Assembly: GCF_011742555.1 (NCBI RefSeq)
Contig: NZ_JAAQQR010000003.1
Span: 496,001 to 560,000 of the forward strand
Source: Luteibacter jiangsuensis
Lineage (GTDB): Bacteria > Pseudomonadota > Gammaproteobacteria > Xanthomonadales > Rhodanobacteraceae
DNA length: 64,000 nt
Direction: 5' to 3'
A program made the position numbers and the translations under genes. Under the pieces are notes generated by a model. The model had not been told where the DNA came from. It was given only the letters and a program-made list of their open reading frames with translations, and did not search any database. Positions 8,811 through 57,601 of this stretch are shown here, in pieces (the stretch's first letter is position 1; each line of letters starts with the position of its first letter).

Positions 8811-11038
8811 GGCCGGGCGGCTGCCTCGAGCGCCTTCTCCACGGTGTCGTAGGTAAGCACGGTGGACAGCTTCGTGCCTTCGCCGCCGCCCTTCGGGTAC
8901 ACCACATAGAGCGGCACGCCCACGGAGTGGTACTGCTCGAGGAAGGCGGCGATGGTGGCGTTCACGTCGGTCCAGTCGCCCTTCATGTAGACGGTGCCGG
9001 TACGTTTCAGGAGAGCGCGGAAGGCGTCCGTGTCCAGCACCGCATGCTCGTTCGCCTTGCAGGTGATGCACCAGTCGGCGGTCATGTCGACCAGCACCGG
9101 TGTGCCGGCGGCGCGCAATTCGGCGAGTTTCGCGGGCGAGTAGGGCACCGAGCCGTCCGCCGCCGTGGTGACCGTCTGCGGTGCGGGGAGCCCGTGCACC
9201 GTCCAGAGGGCGGCGGCGGCGCCCAAGGCGAGCACGCCGGTGAACACCCAGGACAGCGCCCGGCCGCCGCGGCTGCGGCCGTACCACCACAGCGCCATGG
9301 CCAGCAGCACGCCACCAGCCAGCACGAGCGCGGCGGCATCCGCGCCGCGCTGCTTCGTCAGCACCCACAGCAGCCACACCGCAGTGAGGTACATCGGGAA
9401 GGCCAGCGCCTGCTTCAGCGTTTCCATCCAGCGCCCCGGTCGCGGCAGCAGCCGCGCGACCGCGGGCACGAAGCCGATCACGAGGAAGGGCAGCGCAAGG
9501 CCCAGGCCCAATGCGAGGAAGATCAGGAAGGCCACGGTCAACGGCGCCGCGAAGGCGAAGGCGATGGCCGAACCCATGAACGGTGCCGTGCACGGGCTGG
9601 CGACCACCACGGCGAGCACGCCGGTGAAGAAGTCGCCCGAACGGCCCGAGCGTGCGGCCAGCCCGCTACCCACGCCGCCGAGCGAACCGCCGATCTCGAA
9701 CACGCCGGACATCGACAAGCCCACGGCGAGCATCACGTAGACGAGCACCCCGATGGCCAGCGGCTGCTGGAACTGCGCGCCCCACTGGATGCCGTGGCCC
9801 GCGGCGCGGATGCCGACGATGATCAGGCCGAGCACGGCGAAGGCCACGAGCACGCCGGCCGTGTACCAGAGCGCGTGGCGGCGTGCGGCCGCGTGACTCT
9901 CGCCGCTTTCCAGCACGGTGACTGCCTTCAGCGAAAGGACCGGCAGCACGCAGGGCATGAGGTTCAACACCAGGCCGCCGAGGAGTGCGAGACCGATGGC
10001 GGCGATGAATCCGACCGGCGCATCGCCGCCCGGCGCCATGCCCGGCGGGGGCGGCGTCGGGGCCACCTCGGCGGGAGCGGCGGCGGGCTGTGGCGTCTCG
10101 GTGGCGCTGCCGACCGAGGCCGTTCCGGCCGCGAGGTCCACGTTCACGCGGCGCTTCATCACCGGATAGCAGATGCCGTTTTCCAGGCAGCCCTGGTAGG
10201 ACACGTCCACGGCCAGGGAGGTGGCCTTCGCGGCGCCTTCCAGGGGGACGGGCAGTTCCACCTGGTCGAAGTAGACGATGGTGTCGCCGAAGTGCTCGTC
10301 GTGGTGCGCGGTGCCGCTGGGCCAGTCCGGTTCGCCGGCGCTCACGCCGGCAGGGGAGACCACGGCGATCTGCGTCTTGTCGCGGTACAGGTAGTAATCC
10401 TTTGGCATCGTCCAGCGCAGCAGGAGGCTGCCGTGGTCCTTTACCAACGCCTCGAAGCGGAAGGCCTGCTCGGCGGGCAGGGGCTGTGCTTCGCTACCCT
10501 GCGTGACCGCCACGGGGGCGCCGAGCAGCGCCGCGGCATTGGCGGGCGGCGTGGCGGCTGCCGCCGTGGGGATGGTGGAAGGCCCCCCGATCGTCAGCGT
10601 CAGATGCTCGGTGTTCGGCGGGTAGCAGATCTTCGGCTCGACCTCGTGGCAGCCCTGGTACTGGACGTTGAGCGCAATCGTCTTTGCACCTGCGTCGGCC
10701 AGGGTGTAGGGCACCGTGGCCTCGATGTCGCCGTGGTAGATCTCGACGTCGCCCAGGTACTCGTCGTGCTCCTTCAGGCCGTTGGGAAGGCTCGGTTCGC
10801 CGAGCTTCACCGCCGCCGGGTCCGCCGCGGCGATCTTGATTCGCCCGCGATAGAGGTAATAGTCCGGCGCGATGCGCCAATGGAGCTTCACCGTGCCCGG
10901 CTGGCTGGCGTCCGTCGTGAGATGGAAGGCCTGGGTGACGGGCAGGAGATCCTGCTCATCCTGGGCAAGGGCCGGAAGGGCGGCGAACAGACCGAGGCCG
11001 GCGGCGAGGAGCAGCGCGCGGCGGACAACAGACATCAT
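8807..11038 (-). CDS. dsbD: Thiol:disulfide interchange protein DsbD with two N-terminal alpha domains
   Basis: DsbD moves electrons from cytosolic thioredoxin to the periplasm. After a signal peptide (1-25) the 743-aa protein has two DsbD-alpha domains: the first with C130 and C138, the second with C284 and C290 (the canonical five-residue spacing in YQGCLENGICYP). The eight-span core carries the cysteine pair C363 (LMPCVLP) and C483 (SPCTAP), and the C-terminal thioredoxin-like gamma domain has CITC at 657-660. E. coli DsbD has one alpha domain and about 565 residues. The start at 11038 was chosen for the signal peptide. Downstream of cutA, as in E. coli, and coupled to the TlpA-like gene. 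Confidence 0.95.
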   Translation of the reverse strand: MMSVVRRALLLAAGLGLFAALPALAQDEQDLLPVTQAFHLTTDASQPGTVKLHWRIAPDYYLYRGRIKIAAADPAAVKLGEPSLPNGLKEHDEYLGDVEIYHGDIEATVPYTLADAGAKTIALNVQYQGCHEVEPKICYPPNTEHLTLTIGGPSTIPTAAAATPPANAAALLGAPVAVTQGSEAQPLPAEQAFRFEALVKDHGSLLLRWTMPKDYYLYRDKTQIAVVSPAGVSAGEPDWPSGTAHHDEHFGDTIVYFDQVELPVPLEGAAKATSLAVDVSYQGCLENGICYPVMKRRVNVDLAAGTASVGSATETPQPAAAPAEVAPTPPPPGMAPGGDAPVGFIAAIGLALLGGLVLNLMPCVLPVLSLKAVTVLESGESHAAARRHALWYTAGVLVAFAVLGLIIVGIRAAGHGIQWGAQFQQPLAIGVLVYVMLAVGLSMSGVFEIGGSLGGVGSGLAARSGRSGDFFTGVLAVVVASPCTAPFMGSAIAFAFAAPLTVAFLIFLALGLGLALPFLVIGFVPAVARLLPRPGRWMETLKQALAFPMYLTAVWLLWVLTKQRGADAAALVLAGGVLLAMALWWYGRSRGGRALSWVFTGVLALGAAAALWTVHGLPAPQTVTTAADGSVPYSPAKLAELRAAGTPVLVDMTADWCITCKANEHAVLDTDAFRALLKRTGTVYMKGDWTDVNATIAAFLEQYHSVGVPLYVVYPKGGGEGTKLSTVLTYDTVEKALEAAARP

Positions 11039-11087
11039 GTCGACTCCATGGATCGATACGGCGACGAAACCGCGACAACGTCGGTCA

Positions 11088-11450
11088 TTATGACCGGGGG
11101 ATTCCGGATTGGCTTGCACGTGTCGTGGGCACCCCGGCCTCCAGCCAGGCGAGGTAAGGCGCGTGGCCTTCCACCAGAGGCAGGGCGACCACCTCGGGCA
11201 CCTCGTAGGGATGGTTGGCGAGGACGAAAGCCTCGACGTCGGGGAAGGCCTCGCGGACCGTTTTCACGATCAGCAGGTCTTCGCCGTCGGTGACCACCTC
11301 GCCTTTCCAGCGGTAAGTGGACCGCATGCCCGGCAGGTGGTTCACGCAGGCGGCGAGACCCGCCTCGACGAGGCCGCGCGCCAGGGCGGCGGCCGGTTCG
11401 CCTTGCGGACAGGCGATAAGGATGGCGACAGGCTGGGACATGACGACCAT
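11088..11450 (-). CDS. cutA: Divalent-cation tolerance protein CutA
   Basis: A small trimeric cytosolic protein (120 aa) of the CutA1 family, with ILIACPQGEPAAALARGLVE at the N-terminus, AACVNHLPGMRSTYRWKGE, and the C-terminal VVALPLVEGHAPYLAWL. The family is linked to copper/divalent-cation tolerance in E. coli, although its molecular role is unsettled. The ATG at 11450 is preferred because GAGGGG lies about 5 nt upstream; the ATG at 11441 is the alternative. It precedes dsbD by 49 bp on the same strand, the same cutA-dsbD order as in E. coli, and probably shares its promoter. Confidence 0.93.
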   Translation of the reverse strand: MVVMSQPVAILIACPQGEPAAALARGLVEAGLAACVNHLPGMRSTYRWKGEVVTDGEDLLIVKTVREAFPDVEAFVLANHPYEVPEVVALPLVEGHAPYLAWLEAGVPTTRASQSGIPRS

Positions 11451-11564
11451 TGTGCCCCCTCGGCCGCGTCTTTTTTGCACCGGTGCCCTTGAACGGGTAT
11501 CGCACGGCGCCATCTGTCGGTGATCGAAGGGCCTTCCTGATCGGTGGGACCTTTGGCTAAAATT

Positions 11565-11591
11565 CTGGCACTCACCCTGGCCAAGTGCTAA
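11565..11591. promoter_or_regulatory. CIRCE operator of groESL (HrcA-binding)
   Basis: The sequence CTGGCACTC, nine intervening bases, then AAGTGCTAA matches the CIRCE consensus TTAGCACTC-N9-GAGTGCTAA at 7 of 9 and 8 of 9 positions with exact spacing. CIRCE is bound by the repressor HrcA, which itself needs GroEL to stay active, giving heat-inducible feedback. A TAAAAT at 11558-11563 just upstream is a plausible -10 element, so bound HrcA would cover the start of transcription. The operator lies 48 bp before the groES start codon. Confidence 0.9.
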
Positions 11592-11639
11592 CAGGGTGTA
11601 CTAATTTCCTTGTCTGTCAATCACATGGTTGGAGAAGTC

Positions 11640-11933
11640 ATGAGCAAACTGCGCCCGCTGCACGATCGCGTCATCGTCAAGCGTCTCGAGGAAGAGCGTG
11701 TTTCGGCCGGTGGCATCGTCATCCCCGACAGCGCCACCGAGAAGCCGACCCGCGGCAAGGTCATCGCCGCCGGTAACGGCCGCATCCTGGAAAACGGCTC
11801 GGTCCGCCCGATGTCGGTGAAGGAAGGCGAGACCGTCCTGTTCGGCAAGTACGCCGGCCAGGAAATCAAGATCGACGGCGAAGAGCTGGTCTTCCTGAAG
11901 GAAGACGACATCGTGGCGATTCTGGAGGCGTGA
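11640..11933 (+). CDS. groES: Co-chaperonin GroES
   Basis: The 97-aa product begins [19 protein letters not shown] and contains the mobile-loop region ([18 protein letters not shown], about residues 22-39) that contacts GroEL. It forms the heptameric lid of the GroEL folding chamber in the cytosol. The start at 11640 follows a GGAG ribosome site 5-6 nt upstream. First gene of the groESL operon under a CIRCE operator; the 102-bp gap to groEL contains a structured repeat. Confidence 0.98.
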
Positions 11934-11936
11934 AGC

Positions 11937-13679
<1,743 letters not shown>

Positions 13680-14704: not shown

Positions 14705-15208
14705 TTACTTCATGACAGTCGCCAGGAAAGGCCATTGATCCTCATGGCCAAAATCGCCGCGAGTCAATTCGCGAAGGTTCTTTCCTTCCCTTAAGAGAAT
14801 CTGATCGACCTCGTCGGCAACGGCAAACGGGAAGCCCACAATGGTGACATCGAAGCCTGCAAGGATCGCCATGCGTCCGTTGCGGTCATAGGCGACCCAC
14901 TCGGGAGAAACGCGGGCGGGATTTTGCTCGTCTGCAGCGAATGCATCCCAGTCCATCTTAACGAGTACATCTGGCGGTTCGGGCTGACCTATCGGCGCAT
15001 AACCACAAACCAGACAAGTAGCTTCAGGCACAGCCACGCGGATTGCTTCCCAGAGCTGCCGAGGCATGCGGTGGACGCCGTAGCGATTCCGCTCCAGGGC
15101 AGCACCTCTCCAGTTTGGGAGCGCGAACGCATCGGGAGTTCCTTCGTCTTCAACGAAAAAATGCGAGCGGGCTTGGTGGATTGCCATCGGCGGGACAACC
15201 TCAATCAT
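14705..15208 (-). CDS. Uncharacterised protein in AT-richer islet
   Basis: A 167-aa soluble protein I do not recognise. Composition is protein-like throughout: a predicted helix with MPRQLWEAIRVAVPEA near residue 48, a single CLVCG pair near 65-69, and an alternating hydrophobic segment GRMAILAGFDVTIVGFPFAVADEVDQIL near 110-137, followed by a charged tail. No signal peptide or membrane span. Two starts are possible, ATG 15208 (weak GAGG upstream) and ATG 15187. It faces the effector/immunity pair, convergent with it. It could be another immunity or regulatory protein, but nothing in the sequence proves that. Confidence 0.6.
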   Translation of the reverse strand: MIEVVPPMAIHQARSHFFVEDEGTPDAFALPNWRGAALERNRYGVHRMPRQLWEAIRVAVPEATCLVCGYAPIGQPEPPDVLVKMDWDAFAADEQNPARVSPEWVAYDRNGRMAILAGFDVTIVGFPFAVADEVDQILLREGKNLRELTRGDFGHEDQWPFLATVMK

Positions 15209-52959: not shown

Positions 52960-53886
52960 TCAGTGGGACGAGTCGCCGCCGCTGCGCAGTGCTGTCGCAT
53001 CCCTGCGCGGGGGCGAACCGAACATGCGCGTGTACTCGCGGCTGAACTGGGAAGGGCTTTCGTAGCCCACGCGATAGGCGGCGGTTTCGGCATTGGCCTG
53101 GCCCGCCACCAGCAGGTGTCTGGCTTCCAGTAACCGTAACTGCTTCTGGAACTGCAGCGGCGTCATCGACGTGAGTGCCTTGAAGTGCCGATGAAACGCG
53201 GACGGGCTGAGCTGGGCCATGCCCGCCAGCTCGTCGATGCGCATGGGCTCCGCGAAGTTGGCACGCAATGTCTGCACGGCGCCGAGCACGCGCCGCGTGC
53301 CCGGATCGCCGAGCGTCACCTTCGCTACGTCGGCGGCGTGCGGCCCCGTCAGCAACCAATACGCGATCTCGCGCTTGATCAGGGGCGCCACATGGGGAAT
53401 CGCCTCCGGTGTATCCAGCAGCCGGACGAGGCGCAGCACACAGTCCGAGAGCGGACCGTCGTAGTGCGTGACGAACACCCCGCGCGCCACGCCTGGCGAA
53501 GGCTTTACGGGTGTCGGCAGTTCCTCGATCACCTGACCAAGCAAGCTCGGATCCAGACCGATGGCGATGCCGAGGAACGGCTCGTCCGGGCTGGCCTGCA
53601 CCACGCGGCTGAAGGCAGGCATTTCAACGCTGACCACCAGCGCCTGTCCCGGTCCGTACTCGTAGCGGCGCCCACCGAAGGCGCTCCACTTGGCTCCCTG
53701 CGCCACCACGCATAGGGAGGGCCGGAACAGCACCTGCGACTGGTGCGGCAGCTCCGCGCGCATGATCACCACGTCCTCGATCGCAGTGAACCACGGCGAC
53801 GTGCCGCCTTGGCTTTCGGTGTAGCGCTTGATGGCGTCGAGCAGGGGGCGCGACATGGGGTATCCGAGGGCTAGTCGAGATGCCAT
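52960..53886 (-). CDS. AraC-family transcriptional regulator
   Basis: A 308-aa regulator with the AraC_N (type I) ligand-binding domain (about 35-190; PSLCVVAQGAKW, AFSRVVQASPDEPFLGI) and the two-HTH AraC domain (about 205-300; MRIDELAGMAQLSPSAFHRHF, then AYRVGYESPSQFSREYTRMFGSPP). An ATG at 53856 (MSRPLLDAIK) is the more usual family start; neither start has a strong ribosome site. It is convergent with the ABC operon and is not clearly tied to any neighbour. Such regulators often control an adjacent reductase or exporter. Confidence 0.9.
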   Translation of the reverse strand: MASRLALGYPMSRPLLDAIKRYTESQGGTSPWFTAIEDVVIMRAELPHQSQVLFRPSLCVVAQGAKWSAFGGRRYEYGPGQALVVSVEMPAFSRVVQASPDEPFLGIAIGLDPSLLGQVIEELPTPVKPSPGVARGVFVTHYDGPLSDCVLRLVRLLDTPEAIPHVAPLIKREIAYWLLTGPHAADVAKVTLGDPGTRRVLGAVQTLRANFAEPMRIDELAGMAQLSPSAFHRHFKALTSMTPLQFQKQLRLLEARHLLVAGQANAETAAYRVGYESPSQFSREYTRMFGSPPRRDATALRSGGDSSH

Positions 53887-53996
53887 GCATCCTATCCCGG
53901 ATGGGGTCCTCCCCCGCGGCGGGTGGCAGGATCGGGCAAGAAAGTGCCCGGTTCAGGCAGCTGGTCGCGTCGCATCGTCATGGGGCAGGGTCCCGG

Positions 53997-54278
53997 ATGC
54001 TGCGCCTTTTCGGCAACCGAACCGCAATGTCTTGCGCTTTCTGCGCAGGGGCTCGTATAACCTCGCGACGCGACGCCATCCGGGCCTTTGACGTCTCGGA
54101 CTCTCGCGCATCAAGGTACTGGCACGCTAGCTATGACAGGACTCGGTTTCTGCTCGCGCTGGAGCCGAAGGAATTTGTCGACGATCCATACCTCAGCGAG
54201 CACATTCTCGACCGTGATCCCGAGGCATGGGAGATCTTTTCCAAAGTGAGCCGGCGCATGGAGGCGGAAGGCGCCTAG
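53997..54278 (+). CDS. Small uncharacterised protein at start of second AT-richer islet
   Basis: A 93-aa candidate protein beginning at ATG 53997. The first 35 residues are basic with a CAFC pair; the C-terminal 55 are acidic and well-behaved (LLALEPKEFVDDPYLSEHILDRDPEAWEIFSKV). No family recognised, no membrane span. The ribosome site is poor and the upstream frame is open to 53880, so the start is uncertain. The C-terminal half looks coding from its composition; the whole gene is only moderately supported. Confidence 0.4.
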   Translation: MLRLFGNRTAMSCAFCAGARITSRRDAIRAFDVSDSRASRYWHASYDRTRFLLALEPKEFVDDPYLSEHILDRDPEAWEIFSKVSRRMEAEGA

Positions 54279-54345
54279 CTTCAAGCTTCATGAGGCCGCC
54301 AGCAAGAGCTTTGCCGGACACAAGCCGCGAGTGGGAGTGATACAC

Positions 54346-54768
54346 GTGCTTGACTACGATCAATTGAAACTCTTCTTTCAGGTGGTTGTCGGGGTAATCT
54401 TCGACCCTCGTCACATCGAGGGCGACGCGAACCCTATACGCGTGCTGGGAAGGATGGAGAAGGAGAGTCGCGCATTGGCTGCTAAAGGCCTACGCCTGGG
54501 CATATCTGACGCGATATCGATGCTGAGGGATGAGCGGCCAGAAACAATTGCTGCTCTTTCTGCGAAGCTGGAAGAGGCCGGAGCGCCCTCCATCGAGATG
54601 ATTCGCGCCTATCTGTCAAAAAAGTGGGCGGCCATCGTCAAGCACGGCTCCATAGAAACCGATGAGCAGTTCTACCTGGTGAGGGAGCTTGTCGATGATC
54701 CGGGCCTCACATCGGCGGACCGCGACAGATTGAACCATATGCTCGACGTCTATGAGGCGATGCGCTAG
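54346..54768 (+). CDS. Uncharacterised helical protein
   Basis: A 140-aa soluble protein starting at GTG 54346 behind GGGAG (a GTG at 54331 is the alternative). It begins LDYDQLKLFFQVVVGVIFDP and is mostly amphipathic helix, with AISMLRDERPETIAALSAKLEEAG in the middle and LVDDPGLTSADRDRLNHMLDVYEAM at the end. No signal peptide or motif of known function. Third-position A/T is visibly higher than in the ABC operon. It could be an immunity-type or accessory protein; I have no positive evidence for that. Confidence 0.6.
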   Translation: MLDYDQLKLFFQVVVGVIFDPRHIEGDANPIRVLGRMEKESRALAAKGLRLGISDAISMLRDERPETIAALSAKLEEAGAPSIEMIRAYLSKKWAAIVKHGSIETDEQFYLVRELVDDPGLTSADRDRLNHMLDVYEAMR

Positions 54769-54856
54769 GTCGATTATCTCGTTCAGGCTGATCTTGCAGC
54801 CGATCGGTGGGTGTTTCACTGAAGCGGTGGGTACAGCCATGACCGAGGGGGATGAA

Positions 54857-55252
54857 GTGCATAGCAGGACGTCCTTGTTGGTCGCGCTGGCATTCCTTGC
54901 ATCCTGTACCTGGGTCGAGAAGCCAAGGGCGGATACGGATCCCTTGTTGGTGGATGTGCTGACTCGGCCTGCCACGTACGAAGGAAAGACAATTACCGTG
55001 GAAGCATGGATCAGCTTGGCGGACGAAGATCACAATTTGTGGCTGGGTTCCGATGATCACGAACGATGGGATATGCGCAGATGCATAGCGCTTACCCGAT
55101 ATGATCACGTTTCTGATCCTTCATTGCTGAATGGAGAGCGCGTTCGTGCCACCGGCATCGTGCGCAACGATGCCTCTTTCAATCGGTCGATCGTTCGATT
55201 GGGTGCTTGCCGCAATTTGGCGCTCGAGCTGGTTAAAGTCGCGCCAATATGA
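54857..55252 (+). CDS. Small lipoprotein with probable OB-like fold
   Basis: A 131-aa lipoprotein: signal peptide MHSRTSLLVALAFLASC with the lipobox cysteine at about 17, then a beta-rich domain (LVDVLTRPATYEGKTITVEAWI, NGERVRATGIV, RNLALELVKV) whose pattern of strands resembles OB-type small periplasmic proteins. GTG 54857 has a strong GAGGGG site 6 nt upstream; an ATG at 54839 would add six residues. Function unknown. Located at the outer or inner membrane facing the periplasm. Confidence 0.65.
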   Translation: MHSRTSLLVALAFLASCTWVEKPRADTDPLLVDVLTRPATYEGKTITVEAWISLADEDHNLWLGSDDHERWDMRRCIALTRYDHVSDPSLLNGERVRATGIVRNDASFNRSIVRLGACRNLALELVKVAPI

Positions 55253-55383
55253 CAGGGGTTAGGATGTTGGGTTGTTTATCGGGGGTGGTGTTCTGGGTGG
55301 TGGCCCGCCCTGACAGGTCATGACTGATGGAGTCCGTGCCGCATGCTTTTTTCCCTTGACCGAAAAACCTGAGATGGAATCGG

Positions 55384-55680
55384 ATGGAGATTCTGATGAT
55401 CGTTTCCGGTGCCATGTGCTTCCTGGCGGTAGCCGTCTACCTATTCTCCATGGGGCGGATTGCCATCCTCATGCAGAGGGCGGGTATTAAAGAGATCGGC
55501 CTGGCCGATCCGAATGGCCAAATTCGGCTCATAAAGTCGGTGTTCTGGAAGAATGGGATGGAAACACGATTCCACGATTCGCACAGGCGCCTCGTGACTA
55601 CAGCTCGAATCTCCGGCGTCATCGGCCTCGTGCTGGTCGTGACAATATCCTTCGCCGTCGTGATGGGCTACTTGCACTGA
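55384..55680 (+). CDS. Small two-helix membrane protein
   Basis: A 98-aa protein with a hydrophobic helix at each end (about 4-27 and 72-95) and a short polar loop of about 45 residues containing VFWKNGMETRFHDSHRR. No known family recognised. It follows a 130-bp gap in which nothing was found and lies 19 bp before the next gene. Such hairpins are common among immunity proteins and membrane stress proteins; no choice can be made from sequence. Confidence 0.6.
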   Translation: MEILMIVSGAMCFLAVAVYLFSMGRIAILMQRAGIKEIGLADPNGQIRLIKSVFWKNGMETRFHDSHRRLVTTARISGVIGLVLVVTISFAVVMGYLH

Positions 55681-55699
55681 TGGCAGATTGGCCCCTCGT

Positions 55700-56101
55700 A
55701 TGAGGTCTGTTCACATGGGCAAAGTTCGTCGAAGTCGGGGAGCGTCAGCCCTCTTGCTGGCGCTGGCCGCCCTATGGCCGGGCGCCGTTCTGTCCAACCA
55801 ACAACGCGAGATGACGCTCTCCGAGAAAGTGGAAAGCTCTGACCTGGTGCTCATGGCGAGTATCGTCGCCGTGGGCGGCGGGGAGTGCCTGGGCATGCAT
55901 CGGTGCGCCAGACTAAACGTAGCCACCACGCTCAAGGGGACGGGTCCCGTTGATATGGCGGTGCTCTTCGATGGCCCCATCGCCGAAGAGAATCCCCTTT
56001 GCTGCGAGGTGGGCCAGACCTATTTGTTCTTTCTGAAGCGAACGAAGGGGTCCTACTTCCAATCGACCAACGGTCCGTTTGGCATCTACCGAGTCAATTG
56101 A
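55700..56101 (+). CDS. Small secreted protein, NTR/TIMP-like pattern
   Basis: A 133-aa exported protein: signal peptide (about 1-31, ALLLALAALWPGAVLS), then SDLVLMASIVAVGGGECLGMHRC, a strand with VATTLKGTGPVDMAVLF, a CC pair, and VGQTYLFFLKRTKGSYF. The order surface-exposed Cys, -KG-, Cys, G-x-x-YLFFL is the pattern of netrin/TIMP-like OB domains, but this is a by-eye resemblance. Start may be ATG 55700 or 55715. Four cysteines suggest disulfides formed in the periplasm. Confidence 0.6.
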   Translation: MRSVHMGKVRRSRGASALLLALAALWPGAVLSNQQREMTLSEKVESSDLVLMASIVAVGGGECLGMHRCARLNVATTLKGTGPVDMAVLFDGPIAEENPLCCEVGQTYLFFLKRTKGSYFQSTNGPFGIYRVN

Positions 56102-56132
56102 GGCACCCACACTGCAACAGGAGTCTGCTGAG

Positions 56133-56687
56133 ATGGAACATGTTCTTTCTCGTTTGATCATGGCTACGGCCCTGTCGTTGGTCGGTACAGCCGATGCAGC
56201 GTCTACAGGGTCTGGCGCTGCGAGACAGGCTCCTGCCGCGATGCCGGAACGAGTGTGTGAGATTCGGCAGAGAGCTTGGTGCATTACTCAAGCCGACTCA
56301 ATCATTACGGACATCCCGGCATGGGCACAAACTGATGCAGACCATACCTGGCGTATACACCACAGGAGATATCCCGATTCGAATCTGGTCGTCTTTGAGC
56401 CGCGAGGTTGTCGTAAGGCGCTTGCAGATACGGTGGAGCCGATTCGCTTTTCACATGGTGTGATGTGGGAAGGGGCTCCATGGGACGAAATTCTCGTGCG
56501 TCTGCGCAAAGACGGAACCTGTGACCTGACCCTTCGTGTGCCGGTATGGGTGGAAGGCTCTCCCGACTGGCCCTTCAACGAAGGACGAGTGAATCTGGTG
56601 GCATGCAAAGACGAGGCCTGCACATTGAATCAGCCGACCATCGCCGACCTGACCGACAAATATCAGCCACTGCGCGAGAGCAAATGA
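56133..56687 (+). CDS. Uncharacterised exported protein with conserved-looking cysteines
   Basis: A 184-aa protein with a cleavable signal peptide (cleaved after ADA, about residue 22) and a mature part of about 160 residues with six cysteines, including VCEIRQRAWC and VACKDEACTL. Repeated WAQTDADHTW and FEPRGCRKALADTVEPIRF segments show no known motif. ATG 56133 was chosen for the signal peptide; GGAG lies somewhat far upstream. Last gene of the AT-richer run, 143 bp before the reductase gene, and that gap shows only the reductase ribosome site. Confidence 0.65.
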   Translation: MEHVLSRLIMATALSLVGTADAASTGSGAARQAPAAMPERVCEIRQRAWCITQADSIITDIPAWAQTDADHTWRIHHRRYPDSNLVVFEPRGCRKALADTVEPIRFSHGVMWEGAPWDEILVRLRKDGTCDLTLRVPVWVEGSPDWPFNEGRVNLVACKDEACTLNQPTIADLTDKYQPLRESK

Positions 56688-56830
56688 ATGCCTGTTCGTT
56701 GAGGTAGCGAGGTGTACCTTCTACTTTTGTGTCGCGCCACCAGTATCAGGCAAGAAACCGCCCAATTCCGGCATTCGTCCCCACCACGCAGGCGCCTAAT
56801 CTTCCCGTCATCACCCAACGGGAGTGCGTC

Positions 56831-57601
56831 ATGCAAGGTTCCGAATCCAAAGGCCGCATCGCGGTAATCACCGGCGGCAGCCGAGGCCTGGGCCGCAATA
56901 CGGTGCAGCACCTGGCCCGTCGCGGGGTGTCCAGCATCTTCACCTATCACTCCAACGAGACAGAGGCCAAGGCCGTCGTCGAGATGGCGGCCGCGGAAGG
57001 CGCCAGAGCCGTGGCCCTCCAGCTCGACACCGGCGATACAGCCGCATTCCCGGCGTTCACGCAGCGCTTGCGGGAAACCTTGCGGCAGCTGGGAGCCGAA
57101 AGTTTCGACTACCTCGTGCACAACGCGGGCACCTCGCACCACACGCCGATCGAGGACACGACGGAGGCTCAAGTCGACGCCCTTTATCAGGTGCACTTCA
57201 AGGGCGTGTTCTTCCTGACGCAGGCGTTGCTTCCCTTGCTGCGCGACGGCGGTCGTATCGTGACGGTGTCCAGCGGGCTCACTCGCGTGGCCATGCCGGG
57301 CAGTGCCCCTTATGCCGCAATGAAGGGTGCCGTGGAAGTTCTCACGCGCTATTTCGCCAAGGAGCTGGGGCCGCGCGGCATCACGGCGAACTGTGTCGCG
57401 CCCGGCGCGGTAGCCACGGACTTCAGCGGCGGCATGGTGCGGGACAACCCCGAAGTGAATCGCAGGGTGGCGGAGTTCACCGCGCTCGGTCGTGCCGGCG
57501 TGCCGGACGATATCGGACCGATGATCGCGTCGCTCCTTTCGGACGACAACCGCTGGGTCAACGGGCAGCGCATCGAAGTGTCGGGCGGGATGCTGTTGTA
57601 A
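56831..57601 (+). CDS. Short-chain dehydrogenase/reductase
   Basis: A 256-aa classical SDR with the NAD(P) fingerprint TGGSRGLGRN near residues 14-23, the NAG motif (HNAGTSHHTP), the catalytic YAAMK (Tyr and Lys) and a C-terminal GQRIEVSGGM typical of FabG-like proteins. The basic residue after the glycine-rich motif suggests NADP. Substrate cannot be assigned. ATG 56831 follows GGAG by 6 nt. The AraC regulator at 52960 is too far away to link with confidence. Confidence 0.9.
   Translation: MQGSESKGRIAVITGGSRGLGRNTVQHLARRGVSSIFTYHSNETEAKAVVEMAAAEGARAVALQLDTGDTAAFPAFTQRLRETLRQLGAESFDYLVHNAGTSHHTPIEDTTEAQVDALYQVHFKGVFFLTQALLPLLRDGGRIVTVSSGLTRVAMPGSAPYAAMKGAVEVLTRYFAKELGPRGITANCVAPGAVATDFSGGMVRDNPEVNRRVAEFTALGRAGVPDDIGPMIASLLSDDNRWVNGQRIEVSGGMLL

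Follow-up and report, generated by a model that had tools for sequence, protein, structure and literature searches.

The window analysed here, 64,000 nucleotides of DNA from Luteibacter jiangsuensis, carries a block of six small genes inserted between the genes of an AraC-family regulator and an SDR-family reductase. Judged by the neighbours of its gene relatives, this island is likely a small, horizontally acquired heterogeneous polyimmunity locus, i.e., a set of predicted orphan immunity genes with the toxins in other strains. Loci of this kind are already known; the antidote families are unnamed in the libraries searched. Such islands read as strings of hypothetical proteins. Here, four protein families (ORF3 through ORF6) each gain a predicted partner toxin. 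The site is made up as follows.

53960 to 56740, + strand: the whole inserted island of small genes
52960 to 53856, - strand: AraC-family regulator, island flank (Pfam AraC_N, E 7e-46 on 52960-53886)
56831 to 57601, + strand: SDR-family reductase, island flank (Pfam adh_short_C2, E 1e-52 on 56729-57598)
53927 to 53959, no strand: left member of a pair of imperfect 33-bp direct repeats, the two copies sharing 79% identity
56741 to 56773, no strand: right copy of the flanking direct repeat, 79% identical to the left copy

The AraC and SDR genes have been separated by an insertion. Matches of the genome G008 stop at 53959 and resume at 56740, and GC drops in the island. Nothing lies between the two match ends in G008; the AraC and SDR genes are joined, which is an empty site. 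In 12 further genomes among the matches listed, the AraC and SDR matches are 125-357 bp apart. Island DNA is present in two of 23 genus genomes, the window genome and Luteibacter sp. SG786. The flanking repeat of the SG786 island measures 46 bp at 78%; in G008 and in G001, inspection by eye shows a single copy between AraC and SDR. The immediate island neighbours are the AraC and SDR genes, without a recombinase gene among them. A tRNA as insertion target finds no support, the window holding no tRNA gene. A scan for sigma-70 promoters returned 0, versus 1.3 in shuffles.

The composition is atypical. GC is 0.54-0.60 in 500-bp windows from 54000 to 56999 versus 0.62-0.74 elsewhere in the 44-64 kb region. 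For the island genes, GC3 ranges from 0.56 to 0.75, whereas the 52 other called genes of the window average 0.86 (sd 0.05), with one among them (14705-14956) equally low at 0.63. By a model trained on long genes of the window itself, their host-codon score per codon lies between -0.22 and +0.15, compared with a mean of 0.43 (sd 0.13). Because the G008 site is empty, island DNA occurs in two of 23 genus genomes and the composition is atypical, we conclude that the island was acquired. Atypical composition and sporadic distribution would equally suit a phage- or plasmid-borne cargo of other function, an explanation to which we give next to no credence: the six proteins have zero PHROG matches (E <= 0.1), there is no tRNA target, and an ORF5 relative is absent from one viral-contig scan. 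The six island genes are listed below, together with one gene fragment.

53997 to 54278, + strand: ORF1, 93 aa, probably what is left of a longer small gene (partial match to an L094 protein)
54346 to 54768, + strand: ORF2, 140 aa, no signal peptide seen (relatives in family genomes)
54857 to 55252, + strand: ORF3, 131 aa, lipoprotein-like, predicted immunity protein (relatives in L100 and L102)
55258 to 55320, + strand: last 21 codons of a 134-aa membrane-protein gene which is whole in SG786 (90% identity, E 3e-9)
55384 to 55680, + strand: ORF4, 98 aa, predicted to be a membrane immunity protein, with two hydrophobic segments (relatives in L154 and L155)
55715 to 56101, + strand: ORF5, 128 aa, signal-peptide-like N-terminus (by eye), predicted immunity protein (NtA/NTR-like profile matches)
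56133 to 56687, + strand: ORF6, 184 aa, signal-peptide-like N-terminus, predicted immunity protein (relatives in L111 and L112)

The six ORFs span 53997-56687, all on the + strand, with gaps of 31-131 bp; their lengths depend on the start codons which we picked. No Pfam or NCBIfam model scores above cut-off for any of the six proteins, sub-cut-off matches being limited to weak ones for ORF3 and ORF4, and PADLOC (E <= 1) gave zero matches. The original prediction, made from the letters of this DNA, had described just such an AT-richer run of six consecutive, unrecognised + strand ORFs of 93-184 residues between an AraC gene and a reductase, with contrasting codon use, at least three signal peptides or lipoboxes, and one two-helix membrane protein. 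All of this agrees with our data: reading by eye shows a lipobox-like LASC in ORF3 and N-termini resembling signal peptides in ORF5 and ORF6, and the two hydrophobic segments of ORF4 have 19-residue Kyte-Doolittle means of 2.6 and 2.5. The genes are not spread across the order with normal composition: they are AT-rich, and a given island gene is matched (E <= 0.01) in 5 to 10 of 147 sampled family genomes. The original prediction had proposed an acquired envelope, immunity or competition module. Acquisition and immunity hold up; the island does not look like a module with an envelope function, and a weapon gene was not found in it.

We favour immunity because relatives of four of the six genes, ORF3, ORF4, ORF5 and ORF6, sit directly behind genes which encode an Rhs core and a variable tip. 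Such adjacency to an Rhs-core (TIGR03696) gene is seen at 6 of 12 well-matched loci (E <= 1e-10, outside G000 and G022) and at 7 of 21 loci examined. About 0.2% is expected, from 193 core matches in 23 genomes of the genus only, at an assumed 4,000 genes each; the binomial probability is about 8e-14, a value which treats the loci as independent, which they are not. The 21 contexts leave out the weakest matches, i.e., G137, G027 and G117 for ORF1, G187 for ORF2, G040 and G175 for ORF3, G192 for ORF4, G052 for ORF5, and G178, G190, G111, G136, G059 and G030 for ORF6. An adjoining Rhs tip is absent at six of the 12 well-matched loci and in 12 of the 21 contexts, including the single ORF1 locus and all five ORF2 loci.

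One may ask whether the island is rather an acquired module with an unrelated role in the envelope or in stress, its relatives lying near Rhs genes by chance as both collect in variable regions. ORF1 and ORF2 lack a tip partner, three of six ORF5 loci at E <= 1e-10 are without a tip, and all six proteins are unnamed in any library searched, as such a module would allow. Against it speaks the immediacy of the position, from a 13 bp overlap to a 3 bp gap between tip gene and relative in intact cases, in four families and behind different tips; moreover, the sister island in SG786 carries a published immunity domain, ComJ (Zhang et al., 2012, PMC3482391). We consider this module highly improbable and stay with the polyimmunity locus, in which several tandem, unrelated immunity genes are predicted by adjacency for ORF3 through ORF6.

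Individually, the pairings are as follows. An ORF3 relative in L100 (45% in one search, 47% in another) begins where the Rhs-core tip gene ends, and a weaker one in L102 sits behind a homologous tip tail. In L154, the end of an Rhs-core tip gene overlaps a 58% relative of ORF4; in L155, a 37% relative follows a tip as the second gene. L111 has two tandem ORF6 relatives behind an Rhs-core tip gene, L112 a weaker one. In L104, L107 and L109, an Rhs-core tip gene immediately precedes the ORF5 relative; in L105, L106, L108 and L110 none does. DUF4265-like genes adjoin the ORF3 and ORF5 relatives behind the tips in L100 and L104. Beyond the core region the four partner tips are mutually unrelated, any likeness past the core covering at most about 40 residues; HExxH is present in two of the four. 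For the L112 partner of ORF6, the M6 peptidase model TIGR03296 gives a match below its cut-off (E 4e-6, 26.9 of 110.8 bits), lying partly over the Rhs core; with the tip pair of ORF6, the match is to a gingipain R2-labelled chain (E 0.005). PDB profile searches gave a best E of 0.65 for ORF3 and zero matches up to E 10 for ORF6; the structure prediction of ORF6 from two rows has a mean pLDDT of 41.2, an unusable model.

ORF5 merits separate treatment. The profile of its family matches agrin NtA chains in the PDB at E 2e-4. Pfam NtA is matched by five of eight family members (best 0.0011) and NTR by one (0.011); one member matches DUF4131 equally well (0.00099), and the window protein by itself matches neither NtA nor NTR. 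The likeness to an NtA/NTR-type OB-fold is one of the family profile. An AlphaFold model from two rows is unusable (mean pLDDT 42.7). The HExxH motif is what suggests that the partner tips of ORF5 are peptidases; their PDB profile has a single match, a pilin, at E 0.16. TIMP is a metalloprotease inhibitor with an N-terminal, zinc-binding Cys1, whereas the predicted mature ORF5 (by eye) starts with Asn-Gln. For this reason ORF5 is not filed as a TIMP, and a Cys1 mechanism is rejected. A point of likeness is the HExxH motif of the partner tips of ORF5. According to PMC3439447, agrin NtA, lacking TIMP's Cys1, does not inhibit MMPs. The island draws attention to short Rhs proteins that have signal-peptide-like starts of their own, and to ORF5 as a possible NTR-fold inhibitor of an HExxH toxin.

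ORF1 is probably a remnant: its sole good relative, a 131-aa protein in L094, is matched only over its C-terminal 61 residues, by residues 32-92 of ORF1 (54%, E 5e-19). No toxin was found beside that relative. For ORF2, a profile search of 233 family genomes hit seven, namely G000, G022 and 5 of the other 231, with zero new loci, and a scan of genome contigs returned SG786 alone. All five ORF2 contexts fetched are without an Rhs tip nearby.

The SG786 island, at the same site, holds four other genes, among them a DUF4265+ComJ fusion protein. Each strain keeps a broken piece of a gene found whole in the other: ORF4 is broken in SG786, and the window retains the 21-codon fragment listed above. 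Thus, antidotes turn over between close relatives at one site. These broken genes and the apparent truncation of ORF1 might also speak for decayed toxin-immunity cassettes, in which tips once present were deleted and the antidotes are functionless, decaying leftovers. Compared with SG786, dN/dS is 0.23-0.37 for ORF2, ORF3, ORF5 and ORF6 (ORF1 has two changes only and ORF4 is broken; both are left out), above the 0.05-0.07 of the flanking AraC and SDR genes as decay would have it, yet still below 1 in all four, which supports their coding status. Further, neither island holds any trace of a tip: for eight tips, the best match is E 0.7 in the window island and 0.01 over 30 residues in that of SG786. 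Decay would require the clean loss of four unrelated tips, and we regard it as improbable. The Rhs proteins of the window genome, compared with these tips only, lack them as well.

In the polyimmunity locus which we prefer, a Luteibacter lineage received the block at its AraC-SDR site, and the island genes would be transcribed together. The best reading is that the predicted antidotes are mostly envelope-targeted, against rivals' Rhs toxins. ORF3 as a lipoprotein, and ORF5 and ORF6 by their signal peptides, would act in the periplasm, ORF4 in the inner membrane. Each of these four would bind and block one kind of putative C-terminal toxin of competitor-delivered Rhs-core proteins and protect its host; ORF2 may do likewise in the cytoplasm.

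As a separate observation, 88 of the 150 core matches listed in the 23 genus genomes lie in open frames under 600 aa, in line with the short Rhs proteins mentioned above.

A wider and rather doubtful proposal is that Luteibacter and its family run a polymorphic toxin system built on short Rhs proteins exported by Sec. These would consist of a signal peptide, an Rhs core of about 100 residues and an envelope-acting toxin tip, and toxin-free islands would trade periplasmic antidotes. ORF5 would then be a bacterial NTR/OB-fold inhibitor of a zinc-metallopeptidase toxin, a counterpart of TIMP at the level of the fold with a different contact chemistry.

Several known systems bear comparison. The Bacteroidales acquired interbacterial defense arrays (cited in PMC10539506) are likewise horizontally acquired arrays of orphan immunity genes; they belong to another phylum and face T6SS effectors, and no mobile element is seen at the window island. 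The putative T6SS immunity islet of Salmonella Typhi also consists mainly of predicted orphan immunity genes, the effectors of which are absent from the genome (PMC7400221). Its partners belong to T6SS and CDI, in contrast to short Rhs proteins with signal-peptide-like starts here. In Serratia marcescens Db10, an orphan antidote against another strain's Rhs tip was shown experimentally to protect (PMC10539506). It follows an active Rhs-immunity pair within a T6SS cluster and acts on NADase tips, whereas the window island is tip-free and its partners are predicted. Closest are the heterogeneous polyimmunity loci (Zhang et al., 2012, PMC3482391). In several of them, though not all, a recombinase gene is adjacent; it is not required, and is absent beside the window island. 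The window families differ in being unnamed in the libraries searched and in that most members carry envelope signals. Shared are tandem, same-strand small genes of unrelated families with short gaps, freedom from toxins, a content which varies between close relatives, and a fused immunity protein with ComJ in the sister island of SG786.

Six consecutive small open reading frames of unrecognised family had been predicted on the plus strand between an AraC gene and a reductase. They are present, and the reductase is an SDR protein. The genome to which the window belongs measures 4.33 Mb over 20 contigs. The features of the interval are:

52960-53856, minus strand, AraC gene, island flank, from family match
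53927-53959 and 56741-56773, island-flanking direct repeat, imperfect (33 bp, 79%)
53997-56687, plus strand, ORF1-ORF6 (93, 140, 131, 98, 128 and 184 aa) between AraC and SDR, gaps 31-131 bp
56831-57601, plus strand, SDR gene, island flank, from family match

The family libraries searched gave no name for any of the six. The predicted contrast in base and codon composition was confirmed: GC falls to 0.54-0.60, and GC3 of ORF1-ORF6 is 0.56-0.75 versus 0.86 ± 0.05 in the 52 other called window genes, one of which is equally low. Likewise, the envelope signals expected in at least three frames were found when N-termini were read by eye; that of ORF3 resembles a lipobox, those of ORF5 and ORF6 signal peptides. 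ORF4 with two hydrophobic segments is the candidate two-helix membrane protein.

The AraC-SDR island is an insertion. The alignment of the relative G008 to the window ends at 53959 and restarts at 56740 with no sequence between. In at least 12 further genomes (G001, G003, G005, G007, G009, G010, G012, G013, G019, G029, G041 and G054, among the matches listed) the AraC and SDR matches are 125-357 bp apart, a hand-counted distance between matched stretches. Island DNA is present in two of 23 genus genomes, the window genome and Luteibacter sp. SG786; nine others have short matches only (26-65 bp, E 1e-4 to 0.008). This distribution, together with the empty site in G008, agrees with the block-wise acquisition originally suspected. 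The flanking repeat is the longest direct repeat of the examined stretch. Its SG786 version has 46 bp (78%), and the uninterrupted AraC-SDR intervals of G008 and G001 each have a single copy, as judged by eye. It may be a promoter-region or regulator site duplicated on insertion. Elsewhere in the window a palindrome-rich repeat of ~84 bp, beginning GTGGGAGCCGGC, has four copies (45122, 46814, 46947 and 47065), with one more in the fetched SG786 stretch; this repeat resembles a REP-type element.

Relatives were sought in 147 genomes sampled from a larger family set. At E <= 0.01, ORF1 through ORF6 matched in 6, 8, 8, 5, 9 and 10 genomes, respectively, counting the window genome and SG786; the weakest matches may be chance. 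Contexts were fetched for 21 loci. Excluding the window genome and SG786, 12 have E <= 1e-10 (ORF1, 3 and 4 one each, ORF2 two, ORF5 six, ORF6 one tandem pair). At six of these 12 the relative of ORF3 (L100), ORF4 (L154), ORF5 (L104, L107, L109) or ORF6 (L111) is positioned directly behind a gene with an Rhs core (TIGR03696) and a variable end, the tip; this favours immunity among the envelope, immunity or competition roles of the original prediction. The core was confirmed by scanning five of the six genes, and for L154 by a core match from the genus-wide search; the L109 tip is broken. The 23 genus genomes contain 193 Rhs-core matches; at an assumed ~4,000 genes each, 0.2% of genes picked at random would follow an Rhs core, a rate from the genus only. 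Given this restriction, and since the loci depend partly on one another, the binomial probability of six in 12 (~8e-14) should be read as an order of magnitude. No adjoining tip is present at L094 (ORF1), L095 and L096 (ORF2), and L105, L106 and L108 (ORF5).

Among the nine weaker loci, the ORF6 relative of L112 (E 2e-5) comes immediately after an Rhs-core tip, and at L155 one gene separates the ORF4 relative (E 3e-10) from a tip. A weak ORF3 relative (E 2e-4) follows a stand-alone 88-aa frame (L102:7511-7777) which lacks an Rhs core and is homologous to the L100 tip end (44%). L097, L098, L099 (ORF2), L101, L103 (ORF3) and L110 (ORF5) have no adjoining tip. Over all 21 loci, seven relatives are directly behind a tip, two more loosely, and 12 are without. 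AT-rich small-gene runs with ORF1- or ORF2-like members occur at L094:5445-9920, L098:3957-11010 and L099:4526-11170, the last including a DUF4262 protein; possibly these are further immunity islands.

Intact partner proteins have ~300-350 aa, with a signal-peptide-like start, the Rhs core and the variable end. Short Rhs proteins of this layout are seen at L100, L104, L107, L111, L112, L154 and L155, and open frames below 600 aa hold 88 of 150 genus core matches (among the matches listed). Along their tip ends L104 aligns to L107, L111 to L112, and the L102 tail to L100. In every other pair the alignment covers the core and no more than ~40 residues past it, so ORF3, 4, 5 and 6 would answer four unrelated tips. 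Tips of ORF5 partners carry HELGGH or HEIVGH, those of ORF6 partners HEITH or HELGH, and L112 has a sub-cut-off match to M6 peptidases; the variable ends are predicted to be toxins, and peptidases. Seven Rhs-core matches, of which six exceed the cut-off, were counted in the window genome. Against these loci the partner tips align across the core and no further than ~55 residues beyond it, thus no cognate tip was seen among them. Three Rhs-core genes of the window genome (~360-380 aa) lie inside 8.4 kb (L158:4419-12752), two of them adjoining (10536-12752).

Island content turns over between close relatives. At the same site SG786 has ORF1, 2, 3, 5 and 6 and four extra genes: one of 302 aa that overlaps ORF3 and combines a DUF4265 domain (E 5.5e-22) with a ComJ domain (E 5.1e-17), one of 134 aa and membrane-protein-like, and two of 176 and 144 aa. 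The final 21 codons of the 134-aa gene remain in the window, and SG786 still matches ORF4 over its residues 1-46. Such broken genes speak for some decay, as does dN/dS, which is 0.23-0.37 in ORF2, 3, 5 and 6 versus 0.05-0.07 in AraC and SDR. The main rival explanation is that toxin-immunity cassettes used to occupy the site and decayed there; yet the islands show no trace of a tip, which argues against decay as the sole account. Between window and SG786, dS is 0.018 (ORF1), 0.066 (ORF2), 0.086 (ORF5) and 0.105 (ORF6), below all 12 compared flanking genes (0.159-0.436). Exchange of most of the island between the lineages after their split would explain these low values, with the caveat that codon bias differs between island and flanks; a separate history would explain the dS of ORF3 (0.317).

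An NtA-type OB-fold is a lead for ORF5. Its family profile retrieved agrin NtA chains from the PDB (E 2e-4, eight rows; 0.015, four rows). Scanned singly, five of eight members matched Pfam NtA (best 0.0011), one NTR (0.011) and one DUF4131 (0.00099); window ORF5 itself matched none of the three. An AlphaFold model from two rows had a pLDDT of 42.7. According to excerpts of PMC3439447, NtA is an OB-fold resembling the inhibitory domain of TIMP-1 but, lacking Cys1, is not an MMP inhibitor. Mature ORF5 is predicted to begin with Asn (cleavage site by eye), hence TIMP chemistry is not expected. A literature search linking netrin-like and TIMP proteins to immunity proteins gave no paper.

Most likely, the island is what Zhang et al. 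(2012; PMC3482391, as excerpted) call a polyimmunity locus, i.e., antidotes without their own toxins, held against the toxins of rivals. The island antidotes would be retained in this manner, ORF3, ORF5 and ORF6 in the periplasm, judging from their N-terminal signals, and ORF4 in the membrane, a placing that fits tips with signal-peptide-like starts. We infer that the tips are toxic, that the ORFs bind them and protect, and that the island is co-transcribed. DUF4265 proteins recur: one follows the ORF3 relative in L100, and a DUF4265-like protein follows the ORF5 relative in L104. ComJ is listed among immunity domains, with the nuclease ComI as its toxin (excerpts of PMC3482391). Among listed titles joining Luteibacter, Rhs and immunity none concerned such islands. 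Polyimmunity and orphan immunity as such are already established. For an orphan Rhs immunity protein of Serratia protection was demonstrated by experiment (PMC10539506, as excerpted), whereas that by the island is predicted.
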